This document shows positions 23,050 to 59,512 of a stretch of DNA of 64,000 nt, in pieces. Origin of the DNA: Mesostigma viride (taxonomy: Eukaryota > Streptophyta > Mesostigmatophyceae > Mesostigmatales > Mesostigmataceae). The translations under genes were made by a program, and so were the position numbers. Position 1 is the stretch's first letter; each line of letters starts with the position of its first letter. The stretch spans positions 7,783,140 to 7,847,139 of the forward strand of contig RPFO01000080.1 in NCBI GenBank assembly GCA_009746045.1. The letters run 5' to 3'. The notes under the pieces are model-generated. The model was not told the DNA's origin. It ran no database searches and worked only from the letters and a program-made list of their open reading frames with translations.

Positions 23050-23064
23050 GGCCGGGCCCATTAG

Positions 23065-27480: not shown

Positions 27481-27975
27481 TTCCCTAGATGCCCGCGTGC
27501 TCACCAAGATGCGTGGTAGGTGCGCTGCTGTCACTACCATTTGCAACGCTGAACAACCCACGATGTCTTCCATCTTTGCATGGTATATTCCCGTTTGCAC
27601 CGCCGCGTGTATGTGGGATCCGACACCGCTGAGGCGCGCGCATACTGCGAGGCTGCGAGCGAGCTGTCCTACTTCCACGCGCTCATTTGCTGGATTCTCG
27701 CGGTGGGCGGCACCACTCCGCATCTCCGTCGCGTGATACGCACGGACAGCCAGGCGGTTGTTGATTTCATTGAGAACCCTTATGCCCGCACACGGGACTT
27801 GGACTTCCTCAGGGTCAAGGAGTTCTCTGATTGTGTCAGTACCCAGCATGTGCCGGGCGAAAGGAACTACTCCGATGCCCTTACTAAACTGTATAGCTCA
27901 GCTAAGGCACAGTACCCTCTTCTGCGACACACGATGAATAGGCTATCACTGGGTCAGTCTTCGCACTATAGTTGA
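27465..27975 (+). pseudogene. pol: Element B RNase H
   Basis: Residues in order: V-S-Y-C-D-S-S-L-D-A-R (27464 on), then, after a frame change near 27580, Y-S-R-L-H-R-R-V-Y-V-G-S-D-T-A-E-A-R-A, I-R-T-D-S-Q-A-V and Q-H-V-P-G-E-R-N-Y-S-D-A-L-T-K. These are the four acidic positions of copia-type RNase H. Stop at 27973-27975, about 220 bp before the 3' LTR. Confidence 0.8.
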
Positions 27976-28194
27976 GTTGCGTTGAACCATGAATGGCCCC
28001 GCGCCACGGGTTTTCAGCCTTGGTAGGTTTTCCCCGGGAGTGATTACCTATTGTATAATAATGTTCAGTGGGCATTACCCTCTGAGACTATGTCGGTGTT
28101 GTAGTTGCTATTCATGATGGCATGGCCCGCGCGGCCGTAATGACTGATAAGAGTATGCTGGCCATCTTTGCCACATGAAAAAGAAAAGTGCTGG

Positions 28195-28638
28195 AGTTGT
28201 AAAGCATTACAAATGATGCTGGGCAGGGCTCGGAAAAATACTGTCGGAACGACACATTGAAATAAACGTATGCATTATTCTGTCCAGGTTTTCTGTTATG
28301 CAATATATCAGTTTGCCGCACGTGATGTTGATTACCTGGATGCGGACAATGAATCCGGCGCGACTCATGTCGTTGGCCAAAATGGTTGCCAAAATGGTTG
28401 CAGTTTTGCCACGGGTTGTTAAGATATAACCATGGCAGACTTAAGTTTGGCGTCTGGTGTCTAGAAGGTTCCATGTGCACAACGCATACTGCATTGCCAT
28501 ACTTGTAACGACAGTGCAGGACAAGGTTTCTAGGCATCTCTAGAAGGTTGACGCTGTAAATGTATAAATTAAAGCAATAAACAGCGGCCAAGGAGCCGCA
28601 GCCATTGCAACCAAACCCTTCCAAAGTCATTCTCAACT
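28195..28638 (+). repeat. 3' LTR of element B
   Basis: 444 bp. Preceded by GAAAAAGAAAAGTGCTGG, a purine-rich tract ending TGG just before AGTT. Confidence 0.92.
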
Positions 28639-29530
28639 ATCGATCCACGGATGGTAACTGGATCGACCTAGCCAAGTTCCAACCTTACCAAAGCTGTTTT
28701 CCTTGTAGTAGAGGACTTGATCACCTTTTTGGAATACTGCATGGCCTGGGATGGGTTTTATCTTTTTCTGCCAGTTTTGCTGAGGTTTGTGCACGTGCAG
28801 TGTTGTACAGTGCTGTCACCTCTGGAAGATATACGCCTGCCTGCAGTCCTGCTGGGATGACCTCACCCCACTTGGCATGCAGGACAGGTCTCACTCATGT
28901 TTAGGGTTGTGCATGTGCATTTCATGACAGTCCAGAGGGCCCTGTCACAATAGACCCCTGAAGTAGCATATGCATCCTTGGAGGGATTTTTAGCTATAGT
29001 AGGGTTTTGACAGATCTGATGGTTCTTTCAATGACCCCCTGACCTTCATTATCTTCCAGCCCAGCAATCTCTACTGCTTCACACCCTTCCAGGTCATTCA
29101 GACAGGAAAATTGTTGATCAAGCAAAATTCTGTCAACTGGATAGAATCTGGGTAAAGCAATCATGAGTGCAACACGTATGACGTAGCTGCCCTGCTGACA
29201 TGCCATGCAGGTAGTGGTTCCATGATCGACTGTGAACCTCATGGACCATGAGTCTTATAGGATCAGGTAGGGTTGGACATCCTTGTTGATGAGCATTACA
29301 TCCCCCACTATCATGCCTCTAGTGGTGGAAGGAGTTGCAGTATGCCATTTTTGAGGTTTGGGGCTGTTAAACTGACATTATTGACAGTGTTGTCTAGCCA
29401 GCTTTACTGCATTCCTGAACTGAGTGGTTTTCCCATGCTACTATCCCCCAGGCGTCTGGCCAGATCCTCAGCCACTGTTTCATGACCCATGGCTTGGTGC
29501 AGCTGGTGAGCAAGCTCCTTGATACATATC
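28639..29530 (-). pseudogene. pol: Element C integrase, N-terminal and catalytic part
   Basis: Minus strand from about 29510: H-Q-L-H-Q-A-M-G-H, the histidines of the integrase zinc module, followed by A-R-R-L-G-D as in D. The 29242-28994 frame has R-I-L-L-D-Q-Q-F (second catalytic Asp) and G-Q-G-V-I-E-R-T-I-R-S-V-K-T, with the catalytic Glu. The region then runs, with stops, into G-T-W-L-G-R-S-S at 28680, where element B is inserted. It continues at 21672. Confidence 0.75.
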
Positions 29531-31945: not shown

Positions 31946-32469
31946 CTCTCATGCATTATATAGTGGATGGCTTTCCTTACAATTAACTAATTAATTGATT
32001 CCTTACAGTTCCCGTTGCAGTCTGCTCCCCCCAGCATTTAACAAATCATAATCAGATAGGATTGCAGGGCATAAATTAATGGAAGATGTTAATAAATAAG
32101 CATATACACCAAATTTCAGTTGCAATAACTGCATGACCATCGTCAAGGAGCGTGCTAATTGGGTGACTGACAATTGGACCACAAAAACTGTCGCGTATTT
32201 TACCGCCGCATATTTTACACCCCCCACGTATAATACGCGTATTTTAGGTCCGCGTATTATACCCCGTACCCGTATTTGCCAACCCGGGGGTTATACACAC
32301 CTGTGAGAGGGGGGTTGGCCCTCATGAAGGCATCGGTGGCGTGCTGCATGAGGCGAGCGGGGTCCAGGTTCAGGGTACCCCTCTCGTATCTGGACATTAG
32401 GCCGTCCATGGTTTGCAGCTGATTGGCAGTCAGCTGTTGATCCTGGAGGGAAGCCAGCTGGGCAGTTAA

Positions 32470-34734
32470 GGGGACGTGGCGCGCCGAATATTTTCCGCGC
32501 CAAAAAATTCGCGGTACCAGCCGTACCGTGAAAAGTGGGTGCACGGTGGGCGCACCCCTTGCGGAAGTGGCCATGGCGACTGCGTTTTGGCGAAACTAGC
32601 AATGTAGGGCTAGAGAAATGCAAAAAAATTGCTCGAATGTTGAATACGATGATTTAATGATGTTGGGTTGTGGCGGCAAGTAGCTGGTTTACAATATCGC
32701 TGCTTTCTTTTACTGCCATCGGCATGGGGGGTAAACTGCATTTTTTGGTCGCGCGGAATAAAATAGAATTCGTGATAGCGGCAGTAAATTCTCAGTTTTG
32801 GGGGTCTTTTTGATCGTGAAGGATGCATTAATATCGGTAGCATTGACTTCCAAACCGAACTGGTGCTTTTTGCTACATTTTCGGCCATTCTCGGTAAGTA
32901 ATTCTTCAGGCCTGCGCAGTGCATGTCGGAACCTTCCATGGAAGAACGGCCGTTGTTGCGCGCCTGAGCGAGGGATCTGCGAGGGCAAGGTAGATATTTG
33001 TCGCGAATGTTATGTGCTATCAGTTCTTTCTTCTATGAGCTCGTCGTTCGAAGGTTTTTGCGTTCTTTTTGGGCAGTTTCCGCCAGCTAGCTCGCCGTTG
33101 CTTGCCGAATACCTGGCAGCTTTAGATTGTTTTCGTTGATGTCGTGGTCAGGGCCGCTTCAGTCGAAGCCTATAGCTTCTCGGGAAGGTTTAAGGCATTT
33201 CATAAAACGTGTTCTGGCAAGGATGGTGTGCGTATGGACGCTTCTTGTTGTGTGAGAGTGACGCACCCTCTCTTCGCAGCGGCATCACAGCGCTCATGCG
33301 CTGGAGGACCGCCAATGGTTTCTTTCCATTTTATCGTGCAGGGGAGGAAGTGTTTTATTGACGATCATGTTGGAGATATTGCATTTGTGTGACTGCATGT
33401 AGATAGCTGCCACCATTGGTTTATTTGAGCTTTCCCTTGATATGATGATGTGAAAAGACTGCGATGTGCTGAACCAACCATGGTTGACATGGTTGACTGC
33501 ATGCAAGCTTTGTATGCCATGATCTCCTCGGTTTCTTGCCCTCCATAGTTCCAGTTTGTTGCCCATCTCAGGTAGGGCAGTGACGTAGTTGTTTCTGTGT
33601 TGATTAGCTTGGTTGGCATAAACCTTACACTCTAACCTGGGAGAAACATAGATAATGCTGGTTAGGCATTTTAGTGCCATCATCATTATTGCTATTCACA
33701 TGCTCATATGTCTGGCCATGCTCGAGGGAGGGTGAAGGTGTATGAGGTGTGTGGCCACCCCTTTGTACTTCATAACATATTCAGCATGTATTTGATGCAT
33801 GTTGGATGGCATGTAAAGTGTAATTGTGTTTATACTTGGTTACTGAGTGGTCCTTAGCGCCTGTCAGGTGGTCGTCTAGGGAACCCATCGGTGCGTGTCA
33901 CAGTGACCCCAAACCTTGAGCATGTGTCGTCTTCAGTGTGCAAGAGTTATTTATATGTGCTTTTGGTCATAGATTTGCTGAGTTCTAATCATGAAGTTGA
34001 AAGGTAACCTTGGGTTGACTATTGTGTATGCTCTCTTGGCATGTATGCCTAACGATCGTGTTGCTATGCTTGGGCTGGCAAGGTTGGCCATGCCGAGGGC
34101 AGGTGAGGGCAGATGAGGTGCCTAGCTGTTTGCTTATGTTTTGTGATCGAGTAGGGCATGCTTTCAGACTTTTTGGATGGAAAACATCATGCCTAACTGG
34201 CCTTGTACAAAGAAAAACCTCCTTTAGCGTATGTTCAGGTTTTAGCACGTTTAACTTTATAACTTGAGCTAGACTTGTCGGAATGACCTGGGACTTGGAA
34301 GACCGTTGTCCCCCTGTTAGACGGATTTTCGCTGCAGAAAAAAGTGTTTTTTTGACATGTTCATAAAAAGTTATTCCCAATGTCCGGTAAAAAAAGGGTC
34401 GTTTTGCGGGGAAATTAATAACTGTTCGAGGTTTTGCCCTTTCCATGATGTAAATAGCTCAGCAAGCTACAAACTCAGGGAACTAAAAACGCTGCAGACA
34501 GTTTTGCAAATAAATGTGTGCATTGGCTGGGGCATACCCAGCCCTAATTAGCGTCTTTTGTTATTTATAGCGCATTATTGGCGTATATATGGGGGTAGTA
34601 CCCCCAACAAGTGCATGGACAACTCACTAGAGATGTTATTTAGTGCCCCCAATCATAACTTAGCATTGTGCAAATGAATTTCAAGTGATATTAGCATAGG
34701 TCAATTTTTAAGGGTTTTGGGGTGCCACCTCCCC
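32470..34734. mobile_element. TTAA-flanked DNA element, copy 1
   Basis: 2,265 bp between TTAA 32466-32469 and TTAA 34735-34738. Ends GGGGACGTGGC and GCCACCTCCCC, inverted with one mismatch. Same family, opposite orientation, as 45680-48327. Shared blocks cover most of the length, including a frame on the minus strand (32939-32610) that recurs at 47861-48187. No transposase recognised. TTAA targets are typical of piggyBac-type elements, but the terminal bases differ from the usual CCC start. Confidence 0.8.
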
Positions 34735-35093
34735 TTAAGATTGCCATGGCTGTTCTTGAATATCCCCCTGTCTTGGAGGGACCTCAGCAGGTGGGTTGTT
34801 GGGTGCCCTTGGCACCTCTTGACCTCCCCCAAGGGCCTCCTGGGGTCCTGGCACCTCCCCCTGTGTGGGGAGGGTGCCCCAGCCCACAGGGCGAACCTGG
34901 GGTGGTGGGGGAGGGGGAGGGGAGGCCCTGGGGGCCCGGGGTGAGCCCGGGGGGGTCTTTGTAACCCCACTGGGGCCAGCCCCAGCCGAGGAGGGGCGGG
35001 CAGGGTTGTCTGCCGCTGCCCTACTGGCTGCCTCTTCCCGTTGGAGACGTTTCATCTCCTTCCTGACTTCCTGCTCCCTGAGGGCAGCCTGGA

Positions 35094-35659
35094 ATTAATT
35101 AATTAATTAATTAAACTCGTGCTCCCGTTGGGGAGTCACGGAGCACCGAAGTGCTTTTAATCCCTGTGTGTGCACTACAGGAGAAAGGGCAGAGACCCCC
35201 AGTCTCCTTCATGCCAAAGGCATGCCACAGCTGCAATCGGGCGCGGCTAGCTAAAAGGACAGGCTAACGATCCGGCAAACTGTGGGTGCAATAAGACCCA
35301 TGTGAGCATATCATAGCAAGGAGCGTGGGCAAGTAATCTGAACATATAGCCAGGGCGTAGCATGGCTGTACTAGGACTAGGCTAAGGCTATGGCTGGTTG
35401 TGTACCGTGCGTTGGCGGCACGTGACTACGTGTGTTGGCTCAGCTAGGCAACATTCTAGGCATGGCTGCCTTAGCGGCAGTGACGCCAATGGTTACGAGC
35501 TAGGGCTATTGCTATTCTAGCCCGCTGGGGGCGTCCACATCTTGTGGTTGATCATCAGGTCCCCGCCCCTCCAGTACACCTTGGGCTTCTGGGGGTCCTG
35601 CTTATGGCGGAGGTATTCCGGCCACAGGTCGCGTCGCTGCTGTTGCTGAGCGGGGGTGA
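35094..35659 (-). mobile_element. 5'-truncated copy of the ORF1-only LINE
   Basis: Reverse complement of about 40110-40670 (end of ORF1, entire 3' UTR, hairpin and AATT tail), nearly identical. Flanked by GCCTGGA (35087-35093 and 35660-35666). Inserted in the gag of element C; joining the flanks restores A-F-Q-A-A-L-R-E-Q-E. Confidence 0.88.
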
Positions 35660-36937
35660 GCCTGGAAGGCCGCCTCATCAGAGGGGATGTCAGGCATGGG
35701 GTCTCCCACCACTAGGGCGTCCCTGACTTCAAAGTCATGCCTCTTGCCCTTCCCCATGTCCAGGACCAGAAGGCCCTGGACTTGGACTTGTAGGGTTGGG
35801 GGGGGGAGGGGCCCTTAGTGGCTGCCAGCGGGGGCGGGGCCTCCTCGGGCACCACCCCATGCTGGGCCAGGATGGCCTCCGTCACCCGGGATCCATTTAT
35901 GGAGTCCATTGCCTTAAAATGTGCTGACCGCGCTAGGGCGGCCAGGTCTAATTGACCATCAGCGTATTCCAGCTGATAGTCAGCATTCACGTCAGCGTTC
36001 ACGTAACCGTTGAGTGGCCTCACGGTACGCGGCTGCCATCGCCCGGTGGGTGTCCAGGCGACGGGCAGCCTCCTCTTCTTGCCGCTTGGCAGTGAGCCGG
36101 AAGGCCGCCTCACGGCGGACGTCCCGGTGACGCTGCCGCGCACGACGTTCATCATTTGCCACCAGCGCTGCCTGCTCCACGGCCAGGAGCGCTGGGGTGA
36201 GGAATATTTCTTGCTCCCCGTCGGGGAGGCTGGCGGTGTCCGACACCGCGTCGTCGGACATGGGTTGTCCGGCGACGGGAGCGACGGGCCTGCGCAGCAC
36301 CCGCGTGAGCTTAACGCTCTCCCGATATCCTTCTTCTTGCGAAGGTTGGAGGGCCGCCCGAGCTGTAGCTCAATAAAGTTGTGTCCCTGGGCGAACGGGA
36401 CATTGATGTTAGATGTGGCGGGACGAAAGGTGATCGTCCCGTCCGGAGCCACGACGGACGCCGTCTGTCGGGGCAACAGCTCCCGAATGGTACGTTGACG
36501 TCCGAGGTCCGGACTGTGGGGCCTCGGAAGCCCCAGGAGCCGGCGAGGGGCCGGTGACAGTTGCCTGAGGGGTTGTTTTCCGAGGGCCGTGCCACAGCCA
36601 TGGCCGCGGCAGCCGTGGTTGCGGCTATCGCAGCCGCCGGGGGAGAGGGTTGTTCGGTTCCCCTGCATGGGGGGAACCGGCTCTGCCTCCGACTGGTGCG
36701 CAGGGGAGGGGGGCCGGTGTTCGGTCTGCCTTGCGGCAGCCGGACCCTCCGCCTGGCTAGCATTGATATGGTTATTCTTTTTCTGTTTCTTCTTTTTCTT
36801 TGAAATTGCCGCATCTCCAGTCGGCTTCTTGTTGTTATCCTGCGGCAGACGCCTATTATCCTGCCCATCATCCTCGTCGTCATAGGTCAACTTCTTAGCG
36901 ATGTTCTTCGTCTTAGCCATAGCGTCGGTAAAATTCA

Positions 36938-38884: not shown

Positions 38885-40246
38885 ATGACGACTACCAAAG
38901 CAAAACGAGGGCTGGAAAAGGAGCTGGCACAGCTTCCCAGCGCCCAGCCCAACCCTCTCGCCCTCGCCATTGTTCAGCGGACAGGCTTACCCGCCAAACC
39001 CTCGCCAAGCGCCTCGCCTGAGCCCAAGAAACCCTGCCACGATCGAAAATGGAGCGAGTTCCTCCCCGGCGACCGACGATTCGCCTTCACCCGGTGGCAA
39101 GCATTGTCGCCGCAGGCATGCATCGAGGTTCTCCAGTTCCTCGAACAGGAGCGGAAGCTCTTCGTACCCAAGGAGGGGGCGGCTATCGACTACAATGGAG
39201 ACATGTCCTGGCTCTATGCTTTGGACGAAGTAGAACAACGCCTGATTATCCTGACCAGCCAATTCCAGATCCGCCTCGGCGACATCACCAGAACGCTCCG
39301 CACCCCAGCCCCCGCACAGCCGGCAGCCCCATCGGCTTCCTCCCTCGGCAAGGATGATATCCGCGCAGTGCTGGAGGAGCACGTGACCTGGCCGCTGGCC
39401 GAGCAGCTGACATCGCTGAACACCACGCTCAACAAAGTCGAGGCCCGGGTCTCCAACGTGGAAACCAAGGTCGTCCACAAGCTACAACCCCAGTTCACGG
39501 CGCTACACACCACGGCGCAGGCTTCGGAAACGCATGCTGCACTTGTCTCTCGCCTTAACCAGGTGGAGGGCAAGTGTGGCGTGCTCCTGAAGAAGCTTGA
39601 GGCCATCACCGCCCACACCGAGGCCCTGGCCACACAGGTCCCCAAGATAGCGGCGCAGACGGCCACCATTGCATCCCAGCCACCCCGGCAGGATGCTGGC
39701 GACCTCCCGCCGCTCTCCTACGCGGACCTGCTGCGGTCAGCGACCGCCTCCACCACCGACGCCATCGCCACAAAGCTCCAGGAGCTGGAGGACCACCGCC
39801 AGGCCCAGCAACGGGAGGTCACCGACCCCGCTCGCCGCGAGTGCCGAGTGGTGCTACGTCGCTTCCCCCAGAAGCCAGGTGAGACGTCAACCTCTCTTGC
39901 TGACGAGCTCAAGAACCAGCTTCTTACCCTCATGGGCCTGGTAGGTGAGGTAGAACTGCGTGGGTGCCACCGCCTTCCCCACTCACGGGACAAGGCGGCT
40001 CCCCCACCAGTCCTACTCACCTTCCCCTCCCCTGAGGATAAGCAGCGGTTCCTCTCTCGTCGCAAGCGGTTGCACGACCTCACCTGGACGCTGGATGACG
40101 ACCTCACCCCCGCTCAGCAACAGCAGCGACGCGACCTGTGGCCGGAATACCTCCGCCATAAGCAGGACCCCCAGAAGCCCAAGGTGTACTGGAGGGGCGG
40201 GGACCTGATGATCAACCACAAGATGTGGACGCCCCCAGCGGGCTAG
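38885..40246 (+). CDS. LINE ORF1 protein (coiled coil and RRM-like domain)
   Basis: 453 codons, intact. ORF1 proteins coat LINE RNA and act as nucleic-acid chaperones. Residues 1-60 are Lys/Pro-rich. A conserved W-S-E-F-L-P-G-D-R-R-F-A-F stretch follows at about 56-68. Residues 165-245 are predicted coiled coil by their heptad-like Leu/Val spacing (L-N-K-V-E-A-R-V-S-N-V-E-T-K-V). Residues 310-445 read R-E-C-R-V-V-L-R-R-F-P, then V-E-L-R-G-C-H-R-L-P, P-V-L-L-T-F-P-S-P-E-D-K-Q-R-F-L and L-D-D-D-L-T-P-A-Q-Q-Q-Q-R-R, the pattern of the L1-ORF1-type RRM followed by its C-terminal domain. ATG 38885 is the first in a long frame; several out-of-frame shadows exist. Intactness suggests recent activity. 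Confidence 0.85.
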   Translation: MTTTKAKRGLEKELAQLPSAQPNPLALAIVQRTGLPAKPSPSASPEPKKPCHDRKWSEFLPGDRRFAFTRWQALSPQACIEVLQFLEQERKLFVPKEGAAIDYNGDMSWLYALDEVEQRLIILTSQFQIRLGDITRTLRTPAPAQPAAPSASSLGKDDIRAVLEEHVTWPLAEQLTSLNTTLNKVEARVSNVETKVVHKLQPQFTALHTTAQASETHAALVSRLNQVEGKCGVLLKKLEAITAHTEALATQVPKIAAQTATIASQPPRQDAGDLPPLSYADLLRSATASTTDAIATKLQELEDHRQAQQREVTDPARRECRVVLRRFPQKPGETSTSLADELKNQLLTLMGLVGEVELRGCHRLPHSRDKAAPPPVLLTFPSPEDKQRFLSRRKRLHDLTWTLDDDLTPAQQQQRRDLWPEYLRHKQDPQKPKVYWRGGDLMINHKMWTPPAG

Positions 40247-40613
40247 AATAGCAATAGCCCTAGCTTGTAACCATTGGCGTCACTGCCGCTAAGGCAGCCA
40301 TGCCTAGATGTCGCCTAGCTGTGCCAACACACCTAGTCACGTGCCGCCAACGCACGGTACACAACCAGCCATAGCCTTAGCCTAGTCCTAGTACAGCCAT
40401 GCTACGCCCTGGCTATGTTCAGATTACTTGCCCACGCTCCTTGCTATGATATGCTCACATGGGTCTTATTGCACCCACAGTTTGCCGGATCGTTAGCCTG
40501 TCCTTTTAGCTAGCCGCGCCCGATTGCAGCTGTGGCATGCCTTTGGCATGAAGGAGACTGGGGGTCTCTGCCCTTTCTCCTGTAGTGCACACACAGGGAT
40601 TAAAAGCACTTCG

Positions 40614-40645
40614 GTGCTCCGTGACTCCCCAATTAACGGGAGCAC
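40614..40645 (+). other. LINE 3' hairpin, family A type
   Basis: GTGCTCC (40614-40620) pairs with GGGAGCAC (40638-40645), just before the TTAA tail. The same stem is at 3487-3523 and 37503-37532, and in reverse at 3344-3370, 19286-19310 and 35114-35140. Likely the RNA signal read by the LINE reverse transcriptase (inference). Confidence 0.7.
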
Positions 40646-44790: not shown

Positions 44791-46209
44791 CAGTGGTTGC
44801 TTGTGGATCTGTGGGTGCAGTGCGATTACCTTGTGAACGACCTCGTGTTGTCATGTCTCTTCGCTTAACACACAGTGTCACCTTGCGCTGCAGGTTCATA
44901 TCAGCATACACGTCTGTGGTTCTCAGCTGAGCATGCACCTGCAGCACGGGATAATACATGCTGGGCTGCACTACACGTTTCCTTTACCATTTGCCACGGC
45001 AATTTACAGTGCACAGTGGCTATCTCAGGTGCATACTCTGGATCAACTACAAAACCAACTGAACATACACTCCCGGGAAGGACTAAAGCATCCTGCTTGG
45101 GCGCTCGCTCCCCTAAAGGTATAAGCGTCAATCCCTCTAAAGGGAGCTCTTTCACAGAACCGACATCAAACAGAGCGACCTTTAAAAGAACTTGCCTACT
45201 CCATCCTTCCGTCGGGGCACGGAGGAAACTATGCAGAATGTGTGTGATGCGGCCATACCTAACCCCCTCTTTACCATAAACCAGGACTCCTGAGTTGCGA
45301 TGGCGAACAGTTTGTCGAAGGTCGGCGACTGCAGTTCGGTAATTGCTGCCATTGATGTGGATTGAGTCATGCTCGTCACAAGCAGGCTCCATGCCACACA
45401 CCGCCGCCGTAATCATCGTGGGGAGGCGTGGCTCCTGGTTTTGCGTGATCCACTGCTTAAGCCAGGCCAGGTTGCCAACGTGAACGAGCCGACGCCTGCA
45501 AGTGACAACATAGGCAAGTACATCACATTGCAAAATCAATTAAACATAGTTGTCCCACTTCATACAATTATCAACATAGTGAAAAAAAACATCTTCATCA
45601 TTGCATGCACCACCAGATATTGCGTGTAGACAAGGACACAAGAATGTCACTGTGAAATCTAGAAAATCAACCACATTAAGGGGAGGTGGCACCCCAAAAA
45701 CCTTAAAATTTGACATGTGCTAATATCACTTGAAATTCATTTGCACAATGCTGAATTATGATTGGGGGCACTAAATAACATCTCTAGTGAGTTGTCCATG
45801 CACTTGTTGGGGGTACTACCCCCATATATACGCCAATAATGCGCTATAAATAGCAAAAGACGCTAATTAGAGCTGGGTATGCCCCAGCCAATGCACTTAT
45901 TTGTTGGCTACCAAAAATCAAGGTCATATAGTTCCCTGAGTTTGTAGCTTGCTGAGCTATTTACATCATGGAAATGGCAAAACCTTGAACAGTTATTAAT
46001 TTTCCCGCAAATCAGGTCATTTTTTACCGGACATTGAGAATAAACACATCATAAACACTTCCGATAAGGCCACAAAATCAACAAAAATTCCGGCTAACAG
46101 GGGGACAGCAGTGTTCCAAGTCCCGGGTCATTCCGACAAGTCTAGCTCAAGTTATTGCGTCAGACGTGTTTTCAGAAAAATGCCCGCTAAAACAGAAAAT
46201 GTCACTATA

Positions 46210-46488
46210 TCAGCCCTTGTAAGCATCCTGCACAAGGCAGGCAGGGCAAAACCAATCCCCCTTGGGCTCCTTAGTCAACGGGGGGTCAGCGCAGCACCCA
46301 TGCAGTCCTCCCTTGCACCCGGATGTGCTGCACAGCAGGAAAGGGACACCGTCAATTTCATCCGGGGACGCACATGCAAGGCAAGGAATATCATCAACAT
46401 CATTCTCATCATCACTGCTACCTTCCCCATCGCCCCCCTGCCCCTCCCTTTGCATCACGTCGTGACAGCCACCCTTAAAACTGGTCAT
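46210..46488 (-). CDS. PHD-type zinc finger peptide in the TTAA element
   Basis: 92 codons. An acidic stretch (S-S-D-D-E-N-D-V-D-D) is followed by C-L-A-C, L-L-C-S-T-S-G-C, L-H-G-C-C and W-F-C-P-A-C: the Cys4-His-Cys3 ligand order of a PHD finger, with the usual W before the last pair. The frame ends soon after (V-Q-D-A-Y-K-G). PHD fingers read histone tails; some transposases end in related cross-brace fingers. It may be the last exon of a lost transposase or a captured host exon. The initiating ATG at 46488 may not be real. Confidence 0.6.
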   Translation of the reverse strand: MTSFKGGCHDVMQREGQGGDGEGSSDDENDVDDIPCLACASPDEIDGVPFLLCSTSGCKGGLHGCCADPPLTKEPKGDWFCPACLVQDAYKG

Positions 46489-47752
46489 TCCGACAAGTCT
46501 AGCTCAAGTAATAAGGTTATACTTGCTAAAACCTGAACATAAGCTTAAGGGGGTTTTTCTTTGTATATGGCCACTTAGGCATGCTGTTTTCCATCCAAAA
46601 AGCCAGAAAGCATGCCCCACTCAATCACAAAACATAAGCAAACGGCTAGGCACCACATCTGCCCTCACCTGCCCTCGGCATGGCCAACCTTGCCAGCGCA
46701 AGCATAGCAACACGATCGCTAGGCATACATGCCAAGAGAGCATACACTATACTCTACCCAAGGTTACCTTGTAAACTTCATGCCAAGAACTCAGCAAATC
46801 TATGATCAACAGCACATATAGTTAACTCTAGCACACTGATGACGACACATGCTCCAGGTTGGGGGTCACTGTGGCACGCACTGATGGGTTTCCTAGACGA
46901 CCACTCACCACCTGACAAGGCGCTAAGGACCACTCAGAAAGCAAGTAAACAAAATCACACTTTGCATTCCATCCAACATGCATCAAATCCATGCTGAATA
47001 TGTTATGAAGTACTAAGGGGTGGCCACGCACCTCATACTCCTTCACCGTCCCTCGAGCATGGCCAGACTTATAAGTACGTGAATAGCAATAATGATGATG
47101 GCACTAACATCAGTAACATGCATTACCAGCATTTTCTATGTTTCTCCCAGGTTAGAATGTAAGGGTTATGCCAACCAAGCTTACCAACACAGCAACAACT
47201 CCTTAACTGCCCTACCCGACATGGGCAACAAACTGGAACTATGGAGGGCAAGGAACCAAGGAGATCATGGCATACAAAGCTTGCATGCAGTCAACCATGT
47301 CAACCATGGTTAGCTCAGCACATTGCTGTCTTGTCACATCATCATAACAAGGAAAGCTCAAAAAACCAATGATGGCAGCTATCTACATGCAGTCACACAA
47401 ATGCAATATCTCCAACATGGTCGTCGATAAAAAAACTTCCTTCCCTACACGATCAAATGCAAAGAAACCAGTGGCGGCCGTTCAGCTTCTGACCGCTGTG
47501 ATGCCGCTGCGAGGAAAGGGTTCGTCACTATCACACAACAAGAAGCGTCCATACGCACAACATCCTTGCCAGAACACGTGCTATGAAATCCCTTACGCCT
47601 TCCCTAGGATCTATCGGCTGAGACTGAAGCGGATTTGATCAAGACATCAACGAAAACAAGCTAAAGCTGCCAGGTATTCGTCAATACGACGGCGAGCAAC
47701 GGAGAGTTAACTGGCGGAAACTGACCAAAACGAACGCAAAAAACTTCGAACG

Positions 47753-48187
47753 ATGAGCTCTTCGAAGAAAGAACTGATAGTAGATAACAGTCGCCACAAA
47801 TCTATACCTTGCCCTCGTAGATCCCTCGCCCAGGCGCGCAACAACGGCCGTTCTTCCATGGAAGGTTCCGACGTGCACTGCGCAGGCCTGAAGAATTACT
47901 TACCGAGAATGGCCGAAAATGTAGCAAAAAGCACCAGTTCGGTTTGGAAGTCAATGCTACCGATATTAATGCATCCTTCACGATCAAAAAGACCCCCAAA
48001 ACTGAGAATTTACTGCCGCTATCACGAATTCTATTTTATTCCGCGCGACCAAAAAATGCAGTTTACCCCCCATGCCGATGGCAGTAAAAGAAAGCAGCGA
48101 TATTGTAAACCAGCTACTTGCCGCCACAACCCAACATCATTAAATCATCGTATTCAACATTCGAGCAATTTTTTGGCATTTCTCTAG
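47753..48187 (+). CDS. Uncharacterised frame shared by the two TTAA elements
   Basis: 144 codons; the last 109 match the minus frame 32939-32610 in copy 1 with few changes (G-S-D-V-H-C-A-G-L-K-N-Y-L-P-R-M). The region is also similar at nucleotide level outside the frame, so conservation of the frame is not proof of coding. No domain recognised. Confidence 0.3.
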   Translation: MSSSKKELIVDNSRHKSIPCPRRSLAQARNNGRSSMEGSDVHCAGLKNYLPRMAENVAKSTSSVWKSMLPILMHPSRSKRPPKLRIYCRYHEFYFIPRDQKMQFTPHADGSKRKQRYCKPATCRHNPTSLNHRIQHSSNFLAFL

Positions 48188-51100
48188 CCCTACATTGCTA
48201 GTTTCGCCTAAACGCAGTCGCCATGGCCACTTCCGCAAGTGGTGCGCGCACGGAGCACCCACTTTTCACGGTACGGCCGGTACCGCGAATTTTTTCGCGC
48301 GGAAAATATTCGGCGCGCCACGTCCCCTTAAGCACGAGTAAGCAAATCAGAAGAATGCAAGAAACATATGATAATCCTATGTACATGCGTTGCAAGATTA
48401 CACCCTCTCGGCTGAACTGAATTAAAATTACCAATGCGGAGGGTGTACAACTGTAGCATCGGTTTCTACAAGAAACTCACCAGAATTCAATGCCATATCC
48501 GGGCTCGTATGTTGCATGCTGAAGTGCAAAGTCAAGCATCAGTTGTAAGGCCTCAAGCTGCTCGACCTCAGAGAGAGTATATGCTTGTTGACGAAAGCGC
48601 TTGCTCGGCAGAATACACTTGGACGGATCAGTTTCCAGAATGTCCCACACAGACAGGAAGCCTTGACCCTGAAAAAAAAACACATGAACCAAATAGAAAA
48701 AAAAAGAACGTAAGTACATGTTTTGCATACACTTAACCTGCTAGAAACACTCGCTGAAACATGGGAAATGTGCATGCAGCCAAGCAAACACGAAGTTTGT
48801 TTAAAAAACTTACCCACACAGTCTGGCGCGTGAAGTAGCTCAGGATGTTCAATGCCTCGAAGTCCATGAAGAAGTTCCCCATGGAGCATTCCACGTTCTT
48901 GTTTGACAATGGCCCAGAAGTAATCACCGCCATTTGGCGCTCACCCCATGTCATGCTCCGGCCATCAGGCAGGCCAGCATACCGGATCTGTTCCGCCAAG
49001 TGAGATGCAGCATGGACTGATCTTGACATTTCTGACGCTGGCATAACACACTCTAATGCTACCACCGCACGCACCATCATTTCGCCCACTTCGACTAACT
49101 GCGATTGAGTGAGGCACCTTGCTGAAAATACAGCATCAAAGGCCACAGACAGCTGGACAAATGCCGCGTGGGCATCCGGACGGATACAAACGATTGCGCA
49201 ACACGACCGGCAACAACAAGCACAAGTACTTGTTTTTGTCACTTGTTTTCATCGTCTCATCGCTTTTCCCGTCAGCGGCTAGTCCGTGGTATCGCCCAGG
49301 CACATAGTCCGGGAGGCGGTCGAACGCCTTTTCCACCTCTGCATTCAACAGAAACATGGTATTATACACAGATGTAAACGATCACATTGACGATTTGATT
49401 AGAAAATTATGTCAGAGGCGAATTCTCAGACTGGCCAAACACTGTCAGCCCAAATGCTCCGGCAAATCCTGACGCTAACCCCATAAATAGTTATTGAAAA
49501 AATGAAAGGAAGTCTTACAAGCAACATGTTTACCCTAACAAGGGCACTTGGTTTGATGTGGTACACAGAAATCTCTAATGACGGTGGACTACGTCATGGG
49601 ATCTATGGACCAACACAGCAATTAAGCAACCTTGGCAGATGACAACATCAAACACTTATATAAAATACCAACAAACAACATCCAAACCAATTCCAATAAA
49701 AAAGCATATACACATCCACAGACATACCACGGGTGGCCGCTTTCTCCTCCGACGTGAGTTGACATGGTGGATGTCGAGAGTTTTTTTTAATGCTTATTGT
49801 CCGGACACCGTTCTTCGCCACTTTCTCCACCTCTTCCGTGGTAACCCAGAGCTCCTGATTAAGGCCCAGTTGTTGCAGCCTTGCTCGAACAGCAGGGGTA
49901 TGAGCTTTCCCTGCACATAATAAAAAAGGCCACAAAGGACAACACAATATCAACGAAACGCACAATCAATAATCAATCAATAAGTATGTAACAAAAATTT
50001 GTCCCTTGCATATGACAAAGTTTACAAACTGCACACTAGAAAAAAAAAGAACACTGTCGCGTGCTACTTACCGCTGGTGCAGTTGACTATCCGGAGCAGG
50101 CAGTTGGGGCCAAGGTGAAACTCATCCACCAGATGTCGAATTTACAGCTTGGTCCAGTACGGCAGCTTGCCGAATATTTCAGGTTGCACCCCCAACTCTT
50201 CCCGACAATATTTCAGGTACCCATCATAATCCATTTCTGGAGGGGCAGCTCCAGTCCCGGATGGTCGCGCAGGGTCACCTTCCTTCAAAAGCGTAGAGTG
50301 CCCTAAGTATACAAGCTTCCGGCATTGGAAAAAAAAGTTGCTTCCCATTCTGGCCCATGTAACATGCAGCCGCAGTATCCAGCATCTGGGATGTTTAGTG
50401 ACTTTGCAAAAGCTGGGTAGTCGTGGATTACCCACAGTAGGAGCGCCTGCAGGCGCACAGGTTGTAACTGGCCGCCATGGTCATCCACGATGTCGCATAC
50501 ATAAAAACCATTCCACATCGCCACAAGCTCATCAACCGCCAACTCCCAGTACACCTGCATTCTTTTTGGAGCCTTGCCCTTGGCGGCACTTATCAGCAGA
50601 ACCATAGGTGAGAAGTTCTTGTTGACAAATACCCACTCAGGTAAATTGTAGCAAGCCATAAAAGCTGGCCAGCAAGAATAGTTTCCCATAAAGCTACGCG
50701 GACACACTCCGTCAACCGCCATCCCGAATATAAGATTACGCAGCTCAGTACGAAACTGCGGGTAAAGATTTTTTACATGTTGTGCAGCCGGACAGTCTGC
50801 AAAAAGAAACAGGCAAGGAAAGAACAAACCACAGAGAATGCATTGAAGCAATGGTAAGAAATACAGATACATCACTTAACACGACACTGACCTTGCCAGG
50901 CTTCAATGGCAAGATTCAGGGTTACTAACGTTCTAGCTCTACATACCAAAGTAACGCGGCGTTGTGTAACTCTATCGGCAAGCAAAGATAAAAAAAAAAA
51001 GCAATGGCCAGATGTAGAGGCTATGGATTACGAACCTTTGACTCCGTCGACAGTCCGCGTCGGCGAATCTGCATCCTTGTTTTCTTTCTCTCCTGCATAC

Positions 51101-52927: not shown

Positions 52928-55900
52928 TTAGACAGATAGACCGACTTGACAGTCAGCATTCATGAGCTTCCTCAGTACATTGTACTGGGCTGGGGCCTTG
53001 TGTGGCAGCTTTGTCAATGCATCAGCAGGGTTCTCCTCGCCAGGGATATGCTTCAAGTCAACCAAACTGGCCAACTCCTTCAGCAACAAATAATCCAGGT
53101 CCCGGCTCCTGGCCAGCTGCTTGTGAACAAACTGGACCATACCCATGCTGTCTGTTAGCAACAACGTCTCCATCTGCAAGGTCCAAGGGGTAACTGAAGC
53201 CAGCTCCAGCATTAACTCCTTTATGTACAGGCTGGACTGGATCCCCTCGCATATGGCCCTGCATTCTGCCACATCTGAACTGATACAGACCCTCTTCTGC
53301 AGTCTGCTGTACCAGCTGAACAAACTTGCCCTGCTCTGATAAAAAGCAAACAGAGCAGCAGATCTCCCCCTGACCTTGGTAACCTGGCGAGCATCCATGG
53401 AACTGTCAACAAAGATCTCCAAGGTGATAGGCTGGGTAAAGTCAATCCCAGACAAAATCAGATCAGGGGTACTCTCCACCAACCGGGCTATGACTCGAGG
53501 CTTCTCATCCTCAAGCACCTCATCAGGCATTCTGCTATGGACCATCAAAGACGGACCACAGATGCTGGCAAACCAGGCCCACATGCCTCTCAACTCAGGT
53601 CCTGCAGCCTGGGTGATCTTCTCTGGCAAGGCCTTCACAATGGTCTGTTTATAATCTCCTCCAGCCTGAAGCCTGATACTCCACTCCCCGTCCCTCCTGA
53701 ACAGGGTAGCCTGCATTCCACAGAACACTACAGGCTTGTTGGGCTCCTGCCACAGCTCCTTGCCCAGTGAAAACTTGCCACTGATGACAGGAATAAACTT
53801 CTTCAGCCAGGTCGTGGGGGCTAGCAAATGCAGATCATCTCCATGCAAACTAGCATACACTGGCAGACCCTCCCATTGGGCCAGCAGCAAACAGGGATCA
53901 ACTGAAGACACTCTCAAGCCACACTCACTGATCAGAGCTTCCTGCAGCGTGAGTCTCCAGATGATTGGGCTCGACCTGAGTCCTTCCAGGCCCTTCAGAA
54001 TAACCAGGAATTGTTGATGCAGCTCCAGCTTCCAGATGGCAGGCACCTCAACACAGTAAGGCTCATCCTGCTTCCACACCCTCCTGGCCACTTCTGGATC
54101 AGATTTTAAAAATGCCCTCTTGAAGTCCAGCAGCACTGATGACATAGCTGCTCCCCTGTTCAGCAACCCCACGTAGAGACATAGCAAAATTCTCCATGTG
54201 TCGTGTAGCATCCCTGGCGTGTATAGCTCCTCTCCTGGCAGACTCCCCGTGCCGTGATACTCATTCAGGACAGGCCTGACATGGGGCACTGATACCTCAT
54301 CCACAACCTTCCTCTTCAGCACAAATCTCAAAGCAAGCTTCCTTGATGCTGGGGGACGTCTGTCTGTTGGTGCAGCACACTCAAACTGCAACCACTCCTC
54401 CAATGCCTTGGAGAAGGCGAGCTTCCAAGCCTCAAACAAAGTAGGCGAGCTCATCTCTTGGACCAGCTGGTCATATGTCAAAGGAGAGTGTGCAGCAAGG
54501 CTCCTGTGAGTTATGCCAATACTGCTGGGGTGCAACACAGCTGGAATAACCAAACTGGCCGCTGGGGGCACCTCCCCTTCATCCCATTTTACACCCTTGA
54601 CCGGCTTGGCCCTGCACCTGACTGGAAATGTTGTCCTGAAATTTTCTAGGGGAATCATCCCCCAGCCATCTCTTCTCAGAGCTGTAGCTCTGATAGAAAT
54701 CCCAGGATTGCCCAGAAAATTCTGACCCAAAATCACAGGGCCATCATAGTCCTCTAGGACAAGGAAGGTCACATCCACACCCATGACAGGGGCAGTAACC
54801 TCTCCCAACACCCTTAGATGCGTCCTACCACTGAAATCAGACACCCAGGGGCAACTTGGTTCTCCGACCAGCAGTTCTCCTGTATGCTGAGGTCCCATGA
54901 CAGAAACCTGTGCATTGGTATCTATCTCCATGGCAGCTACCTCAGGTTCATCCAACTGGACAAGCTTGGACACCTTAGGCTCCTTCTTGGCTCTTTGCAA
55001 AGCCTGTACAATATCTGATAGACGCACACCCCTAGGCCTGGTGTCGGGCCGTTCCGGAGGTGCAGCCTGTCCGCCTGCTTGCCCAACCACCGTATGTGAA
55101 GGTACCCCAGGGGCCGGGCCAGGGTCACCCTGAGGGCTCGATACAGCTGTAGCACCCTGATCAGGAAGCTCCACGTCACCCCCGCCTTGTACACCAGCGG
55201 GCACCTGGAAGAGGTCTCCTTGATTACCTCCCCGGGGACGGATCTTTGACCAGGACAGACGGTGCACTGCTTGGGAGCCATCAATGGCCACCCAGCACTT
55301 ATGGCCAGCGGCTTCTACTCGGGTCACCACCCCATCATGCCAGCTGCCACGTTTCCCTGGAAAGCTTGGTTCCTTCCACACAACAACCTGTTGTCCAACG
55401 TTAGGTTCTAGGACACTCCAGCCCTTGTCTTTCTGCCTCAGCTTGAGGAACTTGGCCTCTAGCTTCTCCTTCCATGCCTGCTCAGCATCAGCTGGCAGCA
55501 TCCTGGTATGCAGCATAAGAGGATTGATGGCAATGTCACCAAAGAACATGGGAGTCCTCAGGTTCAGCCTGTCCTCCACAGAACGTAGCCATGCAGATGT
55601 CACAATGGCAGATGACGTCCTTGGAATCCTCTCCACCAGCAGCACAGTCTTGATCTCTTGGATGGCTCTCTCCACCACCCCTTGCTGGCCGTGGCTCTCC
55701 CTGGGTGTAATCAGCAACTCTGGAAACTCTGGCAGGTTCTCACAGCACTCAAACTGAATGTCACACTGCAACAACTCCAACCCAGGGTACCTGCTCCTTG
55801 TCAACTTCAGAGCAGCAATCAATGTAGGCTTCTCCATGTCAGGCAGGATCTCTAGGGTCTTGTACTTGGTATATCTGTCCACTGCCACCAGCAGCTTCAA

Positions 55901-56485
55901 ACCCCTGATTCTCTGAATATCTACCTGCACATGGCCTGGCTGCAAAATAGGAGTCCTGGCATGAGACTGCTTGGGCTTTCTAGCAACTAGCCTGCACTTG
56001 CAAGCTTGAGCAACCTGTTGGCAGATGGAGTACAACTCACTTCCTCCCAGCCGTCTAGCAACTTGCAAAGACTGAGCTGCATGGCCAAACATGGTATGCA
56101 ACCTTGAGGCAATGTCATACAAGAGAGAAAACCTTTTATTGTCATTATTAGCACTCAAGGTATGTACAGATCCCTTATGTACAGGAGGCACCAGGGTCGT
56201 GCCTGTCAGACTGTCTCCAGCCCTATCCTCATCCTGACCATCCTGTGCCAGTCCTGCACGGTCAGAATGCTTCTGAGATCCACCTGGGTCCACATCACCA
56301 GGTCCTACCTCAGGCTCAGCACCGCCATGGCGGGCACGTTGGCGAGTAACCACTGCAGCTACAGCTGGCATACTCTCTGTGGTAACCAAGCTTGCCCCAT
56401 CGTGTCCAATAGGCTCTTTCACTAGAGCATGGGGCTGCCCCTCACTGCTGTCACTAGCAGCTTCATTACACACCCCTGGGGGCAC
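52928..56485 (-). CDS. pol: Element D pol polyprotein: integrase, protease-like, RT, RNase H
   Basis: 1,185 codons open without a stop. Integrase: H130 and H135 of the zinc module, cysteines degenerate (C155, C162, C164), core acids D189, D242 and E272 (G-V-V-E-R). Integrase C-terminal beta part at about 360-418. Protease-like domain: M-E-I-D-T-N-A-Q-V-S-V-M (D522) to V-I-L-G-Q-N-F-L (585-591). RT: L-L-D-F-K-R-A-F (D787) and L-H-G-D-D-L (881-884). RNase H: D1027, E1074, D1112 and D1154 (N-P-A-D-A-L-T-K). The first codon of the open stretch here is GTG; the frame is in fact continuous with gag across one TGA at 56519-56521, so translation probably enters from gag. Protease position after integrase departs from the Ty1/copia order. 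Confidence 0.9.
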   Translation of the reverse strand: MPPGVCNEAASDSSEGQPHALVKEPIGHDGASLVTTESMPAVAAVVTRQRARHGGAEPEVGPGDVDPGGSQKHSDRAGLAQDGQDEDRAGDSLTGTTLVPPVHKGSVHTLSANNDNKRFSLLYDIASRLHTMFGHAAQSLQVARRLGGSELYSICQQVAQACKCRLVARKPKQSHARTPILQPGHVQVDIQRIRGLKLLVAVDRYTKYKTLEILPDMEKPTLIAALKLTRSRYPGLELLQCDIQFECCENLPEFPELLITPRESHGQQGVVERAIQEIKTVLLVERIPRTSSAIVTSAWLRSVEDRLNLRTPMFFGDIAINPLMLHTRMLPADAEQAWKEKLEAKFLKLRQKDKGWSVLEPNVGQQVVVWKEPSFPGKRGSWHDGVVTRVEAAGHKCWVAIDGSQAVHRLSWSKIRPRGGNQGDLFQVPAGVQGGGDVELPDQGATAVSSPQGDPGPAPGVPSHTVVGQAGGQAAPPERPDTRPRGVRLSDIVQALQRAKKEPKVSKLVQLDEPEVAAMEIDTNAQVSVMGPQHTGELLVGEPSCPWVSDFSGRTHLRVLGEVTAPVMGVDVTFLVLEDYDGPVILGQNFLGNPGISIRATALRRDGWGMIPLENFRTTFPVRCRAKPVKGVKWDEGEVPPAASLVIPAVLHPSSIGITHRSLAAHSPLTYDQLVQEMSSPTLFEAWKLAFSKALEEWLQFECAAPTDRRPPASRKLALRFVLKRKVVDEVSVPHVRPVLNEYHGTGSLPGEELYTPGMLHDTWRILLCLYVGLLNRGAAMSSVLLDFKRAFLKSDPEVARRVWKQDEPYCVEVPAIWKLELHQQFLVILKGLEGLRSSPIIWRLTLQEALISECGLRVSSVDPCLLLAQWEGLPVYASLHGDDLHLLAPTTWLKKFIPVISGKFSLGKELWQEPNKPVVFCGMQATLFRRDGEWSIRLQAGGDYKQTIVKALPEKITQAAGPELRGMWAWFASICGPSLMVHSRMPDEVLEDEKPRVIARLVESTPDLILSGIDFTQPITLEIFVDSSMDARQVTKVRGRSAALFAFYQSRASLFSWYSRLQKRVCISSDVAECRAICEGIQSSLYIKELMLELASVTPWTLQMETLLLTDSMGMVQFVHKQLARSRDLDYLLLKELASLVDLKHIPGEENPADALTKLPHKAPAQYNVLRKLMNADCQVGLSV

Positions 56486-56518
56486 CCTCCAGGGTTCAGG
56501 GATGTGTGCAGGCTCAAG

Positions 56519-57780
56519 TCAATGATCAGCAGCCTTGCCCTTGCCCTTGTCCTGGGATGGACCAGCCTTGTCCTTGCTGCCACCCTGAGCTGGCTTGCTC
56601 TGACCTTCCTGCCTCAGGTACGAGGGACACTCATTCCTGAAGTGACCCTTCCCCTGGCAGAAATAACATTCCACCTGACTGATGTCCCGTGAGGTCCCAC
56701 TGCTGGGCCCAGCCTTGGGAGGACCACCCACCCTCTTGAAGTCAAACTGGGACTGTGGATGTCCCGACTTCGGCGGGGTCCCCCGTCCAGCCCTTCTGTC
56801 ACGCCCCCTCCTGGACCTTCCTCGACCCCTTGAAGAGGTCTCAGGCCCTCTCGAGGCGCTGGGCCCCCGTGGCCCGATCCCCTCATGGACTTAACCGTGG
56901 GTTCAGTGGCCTCCTCATCACCCTGACGAGGGCGCTTACCACCCACGTACTTGCCGCTGAAACACTCATACAACTGGTCCGTCATGGCTGCCCAGCCATG
57001 GACCTGTCGCATGTGGATGGTCACATTATCCATGGTGACCGGATCCAGCTGCAGCGACTTGAGAAAGTCGCCCATGGCCATCCGATCTGCGACGAAGAAG
57101 CCCTTGGCCATGGCGTCCTCCCTCAGCTTGACGAAGTCTTCAAAGGCGTGGACCACTAGCTGCCCCTTGATGGGCTTGTAGTCCAGGTATTCTTGCTTCA
57201 GGTGGGACCCATCTATGGTCCTCTTGTCACTCAGGAACGACCTGAGTCGCGTCATAAACGCCGTCCAGGTGTCCCCCGCCGCGTGTCGCTCCCGAACAAA
57301 CTTGAACAGCCGCCTCGCCGACTGCCGTATGTAGGCACTAGACGCCAGGATGCGAAGCTTGTCACCGTTGTATATCTCCGTGTACAAGTTCATGTCCTCT
57401 AACATCCTCTCAGCATCCCGGGGCTGCCAATTGTCCTTGATGGACTGAAACTGGCCTAGCACCGCGTACCCCTCAGCAACAGTTGGTCGCTTAGGCGCCG
57501 CTTGATCTGCGGCTGGCGCGTGCTGCCCGCCCTGCGATCCTTGGCTCTGATTATCTGGCACCTCAGCCTGGTCTCCCAGCGCCTGGCCGTCCCCGCGTCC
57601 ATCGCGTCCACCGCGTCCATCGCGTCCATCTCGTCCATCCAGCCCAGCGCCGCGCCGCCGAAGCCCATAAAGCCCGCTTGTTGGTTGATAGCTCCATCCT
57701 CCATGATGGCCTCTGTTCAGATCTGCTACAGCCAGCCAAGTGGCCAAGCAGCAATTAAAGCAATATAAGCTACTGAACAA
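56519..57780 (-). CDS. gag: Element D gag with zinc knuckle (one frame change)
   Basis: Particle protein. Frame 57780-56890 holds the helical gag region (A-V-L-G-Q-F-Q-S-I-K-D-N-W, F-V-R-E-R-H-A-A-G-D-T-W, L-Y-E-C-F-S-G-K-Y). A 9-bp repeat (57595-57650) codes D-G-R repeats near the N-terminus; the first codons of this frame may not be real, as another frame starts M-E-D-G-A at 57704. Near 56885, in a G-run, the natural reading moves to the frame that gives S-S-R-G-R-G-R-S-R-R-G-R-D and the knuckle C-Y-F-C-Q-G-K-G-H-F-R-N-E-C (C-x2-C-x4-H-x4-C). The knuckle frame ends at TGA 56521-56519, in frame with pol. Confidence 0.8.
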
Positions 57781-58348
57781 GAAAGGAAAGTGCCAAGTGT
57801 TACCACTCAGGCAAGACCACCACGGCTGGCCCCAGGCGCGTCCTGGTTCTCCTTGTCGCTGTCGTCGTCGCTGTCGCTCACCACAATCAGCTCTGGTACC
57901 CTGCTACCTGCTGCGCCGTCGTCGACCCGCTGTCGGCCCGCGATGACTGAATCGTCACCGTTGGTAAAGTAGACAGGTGACAACCCGTCGTTGGCCCTCG
58001 CGGATTGTACGTTGGCACCTCGTGGTCGCCAAGTGTCTCGTCGCCTAGCCCAGCGACACCCCCTGCCCTACCTCAAGGTCACTATCGTACCCAAGAGGTG
58101 CAAACTCCTCCCAACGCGTCACACGAACGCGAAGGGGCGGGGCAGCTCCTGAAAAGGAACTCTTACTCGCTCTGGAAACCTGCCGACTCTTGTCGCGCGC
58201 TGTCCTCCGGCGATGGCTTCCGCTGTCGCCCCGACCTCTGCAAGCCGCCTGTGATGCTCCGCTCCGCGTCGTTCACGCCTAACTGGTCCCGCTGCAACAC
58301 CCTCGTCGCCGATGCCGCCTGCGAAAGCACGTGGTACTCCCGCGCCCG

Positions 58349-58816: not shown

Positions 58817-59512
58817 AGTTAAGCTTTCTTAGCACACGCAATGTGAAGGATATGGTTGCAATGCAGCAATGTGTGAATATGGTTGGAAACGGAGCTTTGT
58901 TAAATCGGATAATGTTTACAGCGCTCAACACTTGAGGCTTGCACACGAGCTTGCCAAGTCAAGGCACAACACGTGAGGCGGGCTCGCAAGAGATGCCCAT
59001 TTGGCACTGGCCTATTGTTTATATACTTGTGCACTGTGCTTGCTAGTCCTGAGCAGCCTAGGAGGCCTGCTCAGTAATAACACCCCCGGTACAGTATTCA
59101 CTACCTGTACAGCGCCCGACTCCTATACAGTAGGTCTGCCATACAGGCACAGTGACCACAGAGCACAGTCCACAGTGACTATTGCATCTGCACCTAGAAG
59201 TCCAGGACTAAGCCTGCGGTACCCACAGACCACAGGTTAAGGTTCCTATTTCCTGCGTACGACGTATTAATCCAATACCGTCGTAGGTACAGCACCTAAT
59301 TCCTGTCAGCCCAGGAGTTACTGTCGACCCCATATGTCGTCGGCAAATATTCACGTCCGACTTAGAAGAACAGCCGGCTCGCGCTCGTGCGCGACCGGGA
59401 AGTCGGAACGCCATAACTTTCTTGATACTCGTCGGAATGAACTCGTTCCGGTGCCGCTGGAATCGCAGAGATATGCCGAACCAGGATCACGCCAATGCGC
59501 TTGGCGTTAACT
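58817..59512 (-). repeat. 5' LTR of element D
   Basis: 696 bp. Just inside it the minus strand reads CAAATTACAACC, without a TGG start, so the primer is not evident. Confidence 0.92.

Follow-up and report, generated by a model that had tools for sequence, protein, structure and literature searches.

Can a long terminal repeat (LTR) retrotransposon with a copia-type reverse transcriptase (RT) carry its protease third in pol, between integrase and RT? The question is raised by a 64,000-nucleotide stretch of the Mesostigma viride genome (assembly GCA_009746045.1, contig RPFO01000080.1, forward-strand positions 7,783,140–7,847,139; hereafter, the window), in which an earlier note had read the order integrase, retropepsin-like domain, RT and RNase H from three divergent elements, B, C and D. 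The analysis below supports that interpretation as a whole. From sequence comparison and structure prediction, we consider it probable that element D belongs to an LTR lineage with a copia-type RT, in which a predicted protease lies between a predicted integrase and RT and would cut the polyprotein in place of an upstream protease. The best reading is a copia-related lineage that lost its upstream protease, and uses one located between integrase and RT.

Domain order in element D and its relatives

Element D is bounded by LTRs with 7 mismatches in 696 bp, and carries a 5-bp duplication, GTTGT, on both flanks. Residues are numbered here from the start of the full pol frame; numbering in the earlier note starts 11 residues later, such that its D189, D242, E272 and D522 are D200, D253, E283 and D533 below. 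The features of element D, in window coordinates, are:

58817–59512 (−): 5' LTR, AGTTAA...TTAACT, with the target site duplication (TSD) GTTGT at its outer side
56614–57903 (−): main gag frame of the window copy, 429 amino acids (aa), broken relative to the zinc knuckle
56627–56668 (−): zinc knuckle CX2CX4HX4C at the gag end, in the pol frame, read from the sequence
56519–56521 (−): in-frame UGA (then CUU) between gag and pol; readthrough likely
52928–56518 (−): pol frame, 1196 aa
55421–56143 (−): predicted integrase, H-x4-H part and D/D/E core (residues 126–366), from the structure model and Foldseek
55229–55420 (−): SH3/Tudor-like integrase C-terminal domain (residues 367–430)
54947–55228 (−): fast-evolving linker (residues 431–524)
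54638–54946 (−): predicted retropepsin-fold protease, D533-T-N-A and ILGQNF (residues 525–627)
53639–54637 (−): connector and RVT_2-type RT with HGDD (residues 628–960), from RVT_2 matches of relatives and the RT tree
52949–53428 (−): RNase H, which we take to be copia-like (residues 1031–1190), from motifs read in the sequence and 77% identity to relative P0001
51484–52179 (−): 3' LTR

The pol frame is free of stops over its 1196 aa, and the order claimed for D stands in one uninterrupted frame: H141-xxxx-H146, D200, D253 and E283 of the integrase; the SH3-like part (367–430); D533-T-N-A...ILGQNF; the HGDD of RT (892–895); and RNase H (1036–1170). The frame ends after RNase H, and integrase is not last as in Ty3/gypsy elements. 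The same order is found in long open frames of further families in this genome (L023, L025, L026 and L037). An H-x4-H motif is present, and the integrase motif precedes D-T-x-A, in all six pol frames compared (D, P0001, L023, L025, L026 and L037); RT follows D-T-x-A in L023, L025 and L026, in the family of L037 (as seen in P0002), and likewise in B and C.

Assignment of the RT rests on domain models and a tree. The RVT_2 model matches P0004 above the cut-off (E 1.6e-12) and several relatives below it (P0007, 3e-7; P0006 and P0005, 2e-4 each; P0001, 0.014; L023, L025 and L026, 0.0004–0.007), with no match in D, P0002 or P0003. At E 1, RVT_1 (PF00078) has no match in D, P0001–P0007, L023, L025, L026 or L037 (P0008 was not scanned); its only match is in a long interspersed nuclear element (LINE) inserted in element C. 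In the RT tree (17 rows, several partial, no outgroup), 11 clade rows, B, C and D among them, are split from six canonical copia rows at 99/97, in line with the grouping proposed by the earlier note. The long branches are those of P0010 and C. The canonical references were taken from four contigs of prokaryote assemblies, which are most likely eukaryotic contamination. Profile searches of PDB sequences return no row with RT, four cyclin rows with integrase (a profile dominated by whole P0001), and none useful with the copia P0009.

The 440-Mb assembly in which the window lies was scanned for copies. All 39 scored matches to D pol (window copy included) are 100% identical and carry the open 1196-aa frame; this number is a lower bound, with 10,182 first-look candidates. 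Since dozens of copies encode an identical pol protein, the D-type element has likely been jumping recently. P0002 (686 aa) and P0004 are Mesvir1 gene models with 100% matches in this genome. The 65 scored matches to P0002 are all stop-free and 100% identical as printed, 45 of them in an open frame that is exactly 1344 aa long and others in frames of different lengths. The integrase of P0002 has Asp for Glu, yet 55 genome matches share the top score. For the P0004 family and two sister families (84% and 77%), 80 matches were scored; open frames of about 1300 aa occur among them, and many of the matches are shorter or contain stops.

At the junction between gag and pol, the UGA-CUU context is identical in eight of eight other D copies examined; four of these have the knuckle and a gag frame of 396–461 aa together in a single open frame that this UGA closes. 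The junction reads UGA-CUA in L023, L024, L025 and L026 (three families), while gag and pol frames of the P0002 family overlap in the −1 sense. The possibility that UGA is a sense codon throughout was considered and rejected; in four of nine D copies, it is the sole stop between the gag frame and pol. TSDs are 5 bp long in the three D copies with both ends found (of nine looked at) and also in B. LTR termini are AGTT...AACT in elements B and D and in the P0002 family (loci L027 and L037), and TGTTG...CAACA in the 77% family. According to PMC12440569, TG...CA termini and duplications of 4–6 bp are found in most LTR elements.

A protease in the usual position was not found. The triplet D[ST]G is absent between the gag stop and H-x4-H in all six pol frames, from the whole of D pol and P0001, and from the main D gag frame; the earlier note, which had reported no such box between zinc knuckle and integrase in D, is borne out, and no canonical protease came to light upstream of integrase. 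Ahead of the H-x4-H motif, the pol frames contain 110–188 residues. When D is aligned with P0001, identity in this pre-integrase stretch is 25%, with 18 gap columns; the third domain aligns without gaps at 63% identity. In canonical copias, the domain order is Pol_BBD, rve, SH3, RVT_2 in 6/6 elements with all domains found, and two canonical copias from this genome place the protease first. P0009, also canonical, has Pol_BBD before SH3 and RVT_2, with no rve match; in P0010, no protease was found. As the earlier note supposed, no copia element with a protease between integrase and RT, and no described clade with protease third, appeared among the records listed by searches of a literature collection that lacks most subscription papers and bioRxiv. 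The accessible parts of PMC6947507 and PMC7027972 do not contain the word copia.

The third domain as a predicted protease

Structure prediction, which the earlier note had proposed as a check, gives a retropepsin fold for residues 500–632 of D, and the closest solved structures of the domain are the Ddi1/ASPRV1 retropepsins. The third domain is 37–41% identical among D, the P0002 family and the P0004-type families; as it is also under purifying selection, a chance origin is excluded. Its active-site box reads D-T-[N/D/K/Q]-A in all eight families and D-T-G in none: D-T-N-A in D, P0001 and L023, D-T-D-A in L025 and L026, D-T-K-A in P0002/L037, and D-T-Q-A in B and C. Asp, Thr and the Ala after the variable position are conserved in 8/8 families.

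A D-[ST]-G box without its Gly would look dead by the usual rule. In three of six canonical copia proteases (L053, L054 and L001; two from this genome), however, D-S-G-A is replaced by D-S-A-A, and so the clade is not alone in having lost the Gly. D-T-G-C is reported for a crustacean copia in PMC3587641.

Selection was estimated from the ratio of nonsynonymous to synonymous substitution rates (dN/dS) between L023, L025 and L026, with one copy per family; dS is high, and the values are rough. The third domain gives 0.13 and 0.09 and the N-terminal domain plus core of the integrase 0.09 and 0.19 (the third pair is saturated in both cases), the integrase C-terminal plus SH3 part 0.19–0.24, the connector 0.04–0.13 and RT 0.06–0.07. 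The two linkers lie at 0.45–0.83: 0.45–0.77 for the linker corresponding to residues 431–524 and 0.53–0.83 for the pre-integrase stretch. In the comparison of D with P0001, linker 431–524 is 49% identical with 5 gap columns. The contrast between domains and linkers is clear, and the third domain is kept like an enzyme.

Both the ILGxxFL strand-helix at the C-terminal end of the third domain and the PDB matches of that domain are of retroviral/DDI1 type, while the copia set ends in VPxLxxxLLSV. None of nine third-domain rows matches Pol_BBD at E 1. A profile of the clade protease compared with a profile of six canonical copia proteases gives a probability of 3.5 and no register; this is weak evidence for a different source, because the copia profile, run against PDB as a control, finds no retropepsin either (six rows, none a retropepsin). 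The domain looks like a protease of retroviral/Ddi1 type, and not like a copia-type protease that is still recognisable and has simply changed place, although the sequence comparison behind the second half of that statement is weak. That the protease resembles the retroviral/Ddi1 type is more certain than its origin; between exchange and relocation, the Ddi1/retroviral matches make exchange the likelier.

Elements B and C and the remainder of the window

The other two elements are damaged. Their features are:

21673–28638 (+): element B, with LTRs at 21673–22116 and 28195–28638 and TSD ATCGA; frames broken; sits in element C
23098–24183 (+): element B integrase and SH3-like part (tblastn of D, E 4e-30)
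24622–24810 (+): element B protease, N-terminal half (DTQA)
24809–26033 (no strand): array of 338-bp units splitting the element B protease, 3.6 copies, also inverted; 1.2 kb
26032–26199 (+): element B protease, C-terminal half (LLGQPFL)
26200–27939 (+): element B RT and RNase H, in several frames (tblastn of D)
28976–29517 (−): integrase piece (tblastn of D, E 6e-8), assigned to element C, whose other parts lie on the far side of B
20965–21188 (−): element C protease (DTQA), in two frames, with its ILG end broken by the LINE
20395–20871 (−): LINE RT (RVT_1, E=1.4e-21) inserted in element C, outside the system
17362–19239 (−): element C RT and RNase H, with stops (tblastn of D, E 5e-45)

For B, the order reported in the earlier note is right by tblastn (the RT/RNase H match to D spans 25861–27939). 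What had gone unmentioned is that the frame is broken, and that the protease is cut in two by the 338-bp array, which itself carries strong inverted repeats. For C, the placement of protease before RT likewise holds, while the stretch taken for a copia RT belongs to the LINE (about 19266–20965, in the protease end of C), and the true RT and RNase H lie at 19239–17362. A gag-like frame and integrase core at 30778–28976 probably also belong to C. We place them beyond B because B, with its TSD ATCGA, sits inside C, in the SH3-like part; this is our reading of the flanks, which are not joined across B.

Elsewhere in the window, direct repeats of 670 bp (99.7% identical) bound an 8.8-kb stretch at 6255–15071, with a gag-like frame at 11719–13335 (−) and no match to D pol. 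A long broken inverted repeat occupies 32466–34738 and 45676–48331 (arms 86–96% complementary, about 11–15 kb between them). An inverted pair of about 0.5 kb (35128–35660 and 40103–40632; 97–100% complementary, about 4.4 kb between) is a possible fold-back element. Scans of the window for tRNAs and Rfam families found none.

Placement, alternative explanations and meaning

Like Ty1/copia, the lineage has an RVT_2-type RT with RNase H after it as the final part of pol, an H-x4-H integrase ahead of RT, LTRs and a 5-bp TSD. It differs in that its protease comes after integrase and is not of recognisable Pol_BBD type, and in that some families have AGTT...AACT ends. Because the order and, as far as tested, the protease type differ from the definition of Ty1/copia, we call the lineage copia-related, rather than a member of Ty1/copia as defined. 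Ty3/gypsy elements also have a retroviral-type retropepsin directly before RT–RNase H; in the present clade, integrase is first instead of last, and RT is of RVT_2 rather than RVT_1 type. In Gmr1-like Ty3/gypsy elements, the protease stayed in front. These elements provide a published case of changed pol order, with integrase upstream of RT (Goodwin and Poulter 2002, cited in PMC3587641), but there the RT is of gypsy type and it is the integrase that moved, whereas the clade has a copia-type RT. Ddi1 and ASPRV1 are host proteins with D-S-G in the aligned chains, in contrast to D-T-x-A inside a retrotransposon pol. Finally, Tca2 of Candida albicans is an element of copia type. It too has a UGA between gag and pol, there with a potential 3' pseudoknot (PMC2194720), while the clade shows no standout structure by a method blind to pseudoknots.

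Relatives extend beyond this genome. A protein search with D alone yields one relative; a region of P0001 (62% identical to D, from another record) and a profile were needed for more. P0005, P0006 and P0008, which come from transcript sets of the dinoflagellates Prorocentrum lima and Lingulodinium polyedra, are closely related: P0006 (P. lima) is 85.9% identical over 277 aa to a Mesostigma gene model, and P0008 (Lingulodinium) 73.5% identical to D over 83 aa. They may reflect horizontal spread or contamination. The viral contigs scanned contain no clade relative and no copia reference.

Several observations weigh against the reading of a copia-related lineage with a working protease in third position. 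The box departs from D-[ST]-G-[AS] in 8/8 families, and cutting activity is a prediction, as are the retropepsin and integrase folds. PDB sequence matches of the third domain are not significant alone, gag-asp_proteas matches reach E 0.086–0.17, and the copia control profile above recovers no retropepsin. The integrase model of D finds retroviral integrases in all 50 matches listed (Foldseek E 6e-8), yet it is weak: predicted local distance difference test (pLDDT) 60, predicted template modelling score (pTM) 0.34 and template modelling (TM) scores of 0.21–0.27. A second structure search with it matched only the SH3/Tudor-like end, which is no argument against the core. In the P0002 family, Asp (QGKVDR) occupies the third acidic position of the integrase, where the five other frames have Glu (QG.VER). 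Against Pfam, no model reaches the cut-off in D, with Agenet (E 0.077) alone appearing. The RNA after the UGA has no structure beyond chance (z −0.81 to 1.06, 4/4; pseudoknots outside the method). L026 has two D-T-G triplets in a low-complexity linker of its gag frame; the gag frames of L023, L024 and L037 lack them, and we take them as chance. With only six canonical rows and no outgroup, the RT tree does not separate a position within copia from one sister to it.

How far do these points favour other explanations? Relocation of the copia protease within pol, followed by divergence, with no retroviral/Ddi1-type source, is rather unlikely. In its favour, a shift of one domain would be the most economical change given the copia-like RT and H-x4-H integrase, and copia proteases are so diverged (0/6 rows of their profile find a PDB retropepsin) that a failed match says little. 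Set against relocation are the lack of register with the copia proteases, the ILGxxFL end with its retroviral/DDI1-type matches, and the absence of Pol_BBD matches in all nine rows. Distinctly less probable is that the third domain has a retropepsin fold without proteolytic activity, serving as a spacer or a scaffold for RT and integrase, while a host or other-element protease does the cutting. Replacement of Gly by N, D, K or Q in every family would fit such a role, and the canonical copia proteases of the same genome could act in trans; conservation of Asp, Thr and Ala, a dN/dS of about 0.1, and D-S-A-A in half of the canonical copias, by which Gly alone does not separate dead from alive, speak for activity.

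A diverged canonical protease may, in principle, persist upstream of integrase, making the third domain an extra. The 110–188 residues there are nearly room enough, and the L026 gag frame has its two D-T-G triplets. The stretch itself, with D[ST]G in 0/6 frames, 25% identity and 18 gaps between D and P0001, and dN/dS of 0.53–0.83 in sister families, makes this very improbable, and the triplets recur in none of the L023, L024 or D gag frames. Least credible of all is a one-off rearrangement or assembly error. B and C are indeed broken by insertions, and the plant survey PMC6317226 removed elements with unexpected domain order in every case as likely mis-predictions; its 5410 copias read gag-protease-integrase-RT-RNase H. 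The 39 identical open matches to D, the several further open families and the 62% relative in another record exclude such an event, as the earlier note had argued from three copies.

If the copia-related lineage does rely on its third-position protease, ribosomes would read through the UGA (UGA-CUA or UGA-CUU), yielding some Gag-Pol, with a −1 frame change taking the place of readthrough in the P0002 family. Two Gag-Pol chains would pair, such that two D-T-x-A boxes form one active site, and the paired protease would free integrase, protease and RT–RNase H inside the particle; RT would then copy the RNA and integrase insert the product with a 5-bp stagger. As to descent, a retroviral/Ddi1-type retropepsin was likely acquired within the loose linker that separates integrase from RT; loss of the original copia protease, located ahead of integrase, would have followed. 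More tentatively, at somewhat less than even chances, we suggest a family-level lineage, so far undescribed and still mobile, that branches deep within the copia line or as its sister and is present in streptophyte algae and dinoflagellates. In it, the copia protease would have been replaced by a retroviral/Ddi1-type retropepsin whose D-T-x-A box accepts N, D, K or Q at the glycine position.

The order of pol domains is used to define superfamilies of LTR retrotransposons, and annotation pipelines rely on it to sort elements or discard them. Among new superfamilies, Troyka is a recent case (PMC12440569). Domain order is less rigid than the definitions suppose, as its third variant in an abundant, apparently young group shows. 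Exchange of proteases among elements may be possible, and the D-T-x-A box offers a natural test of the need for glycine.

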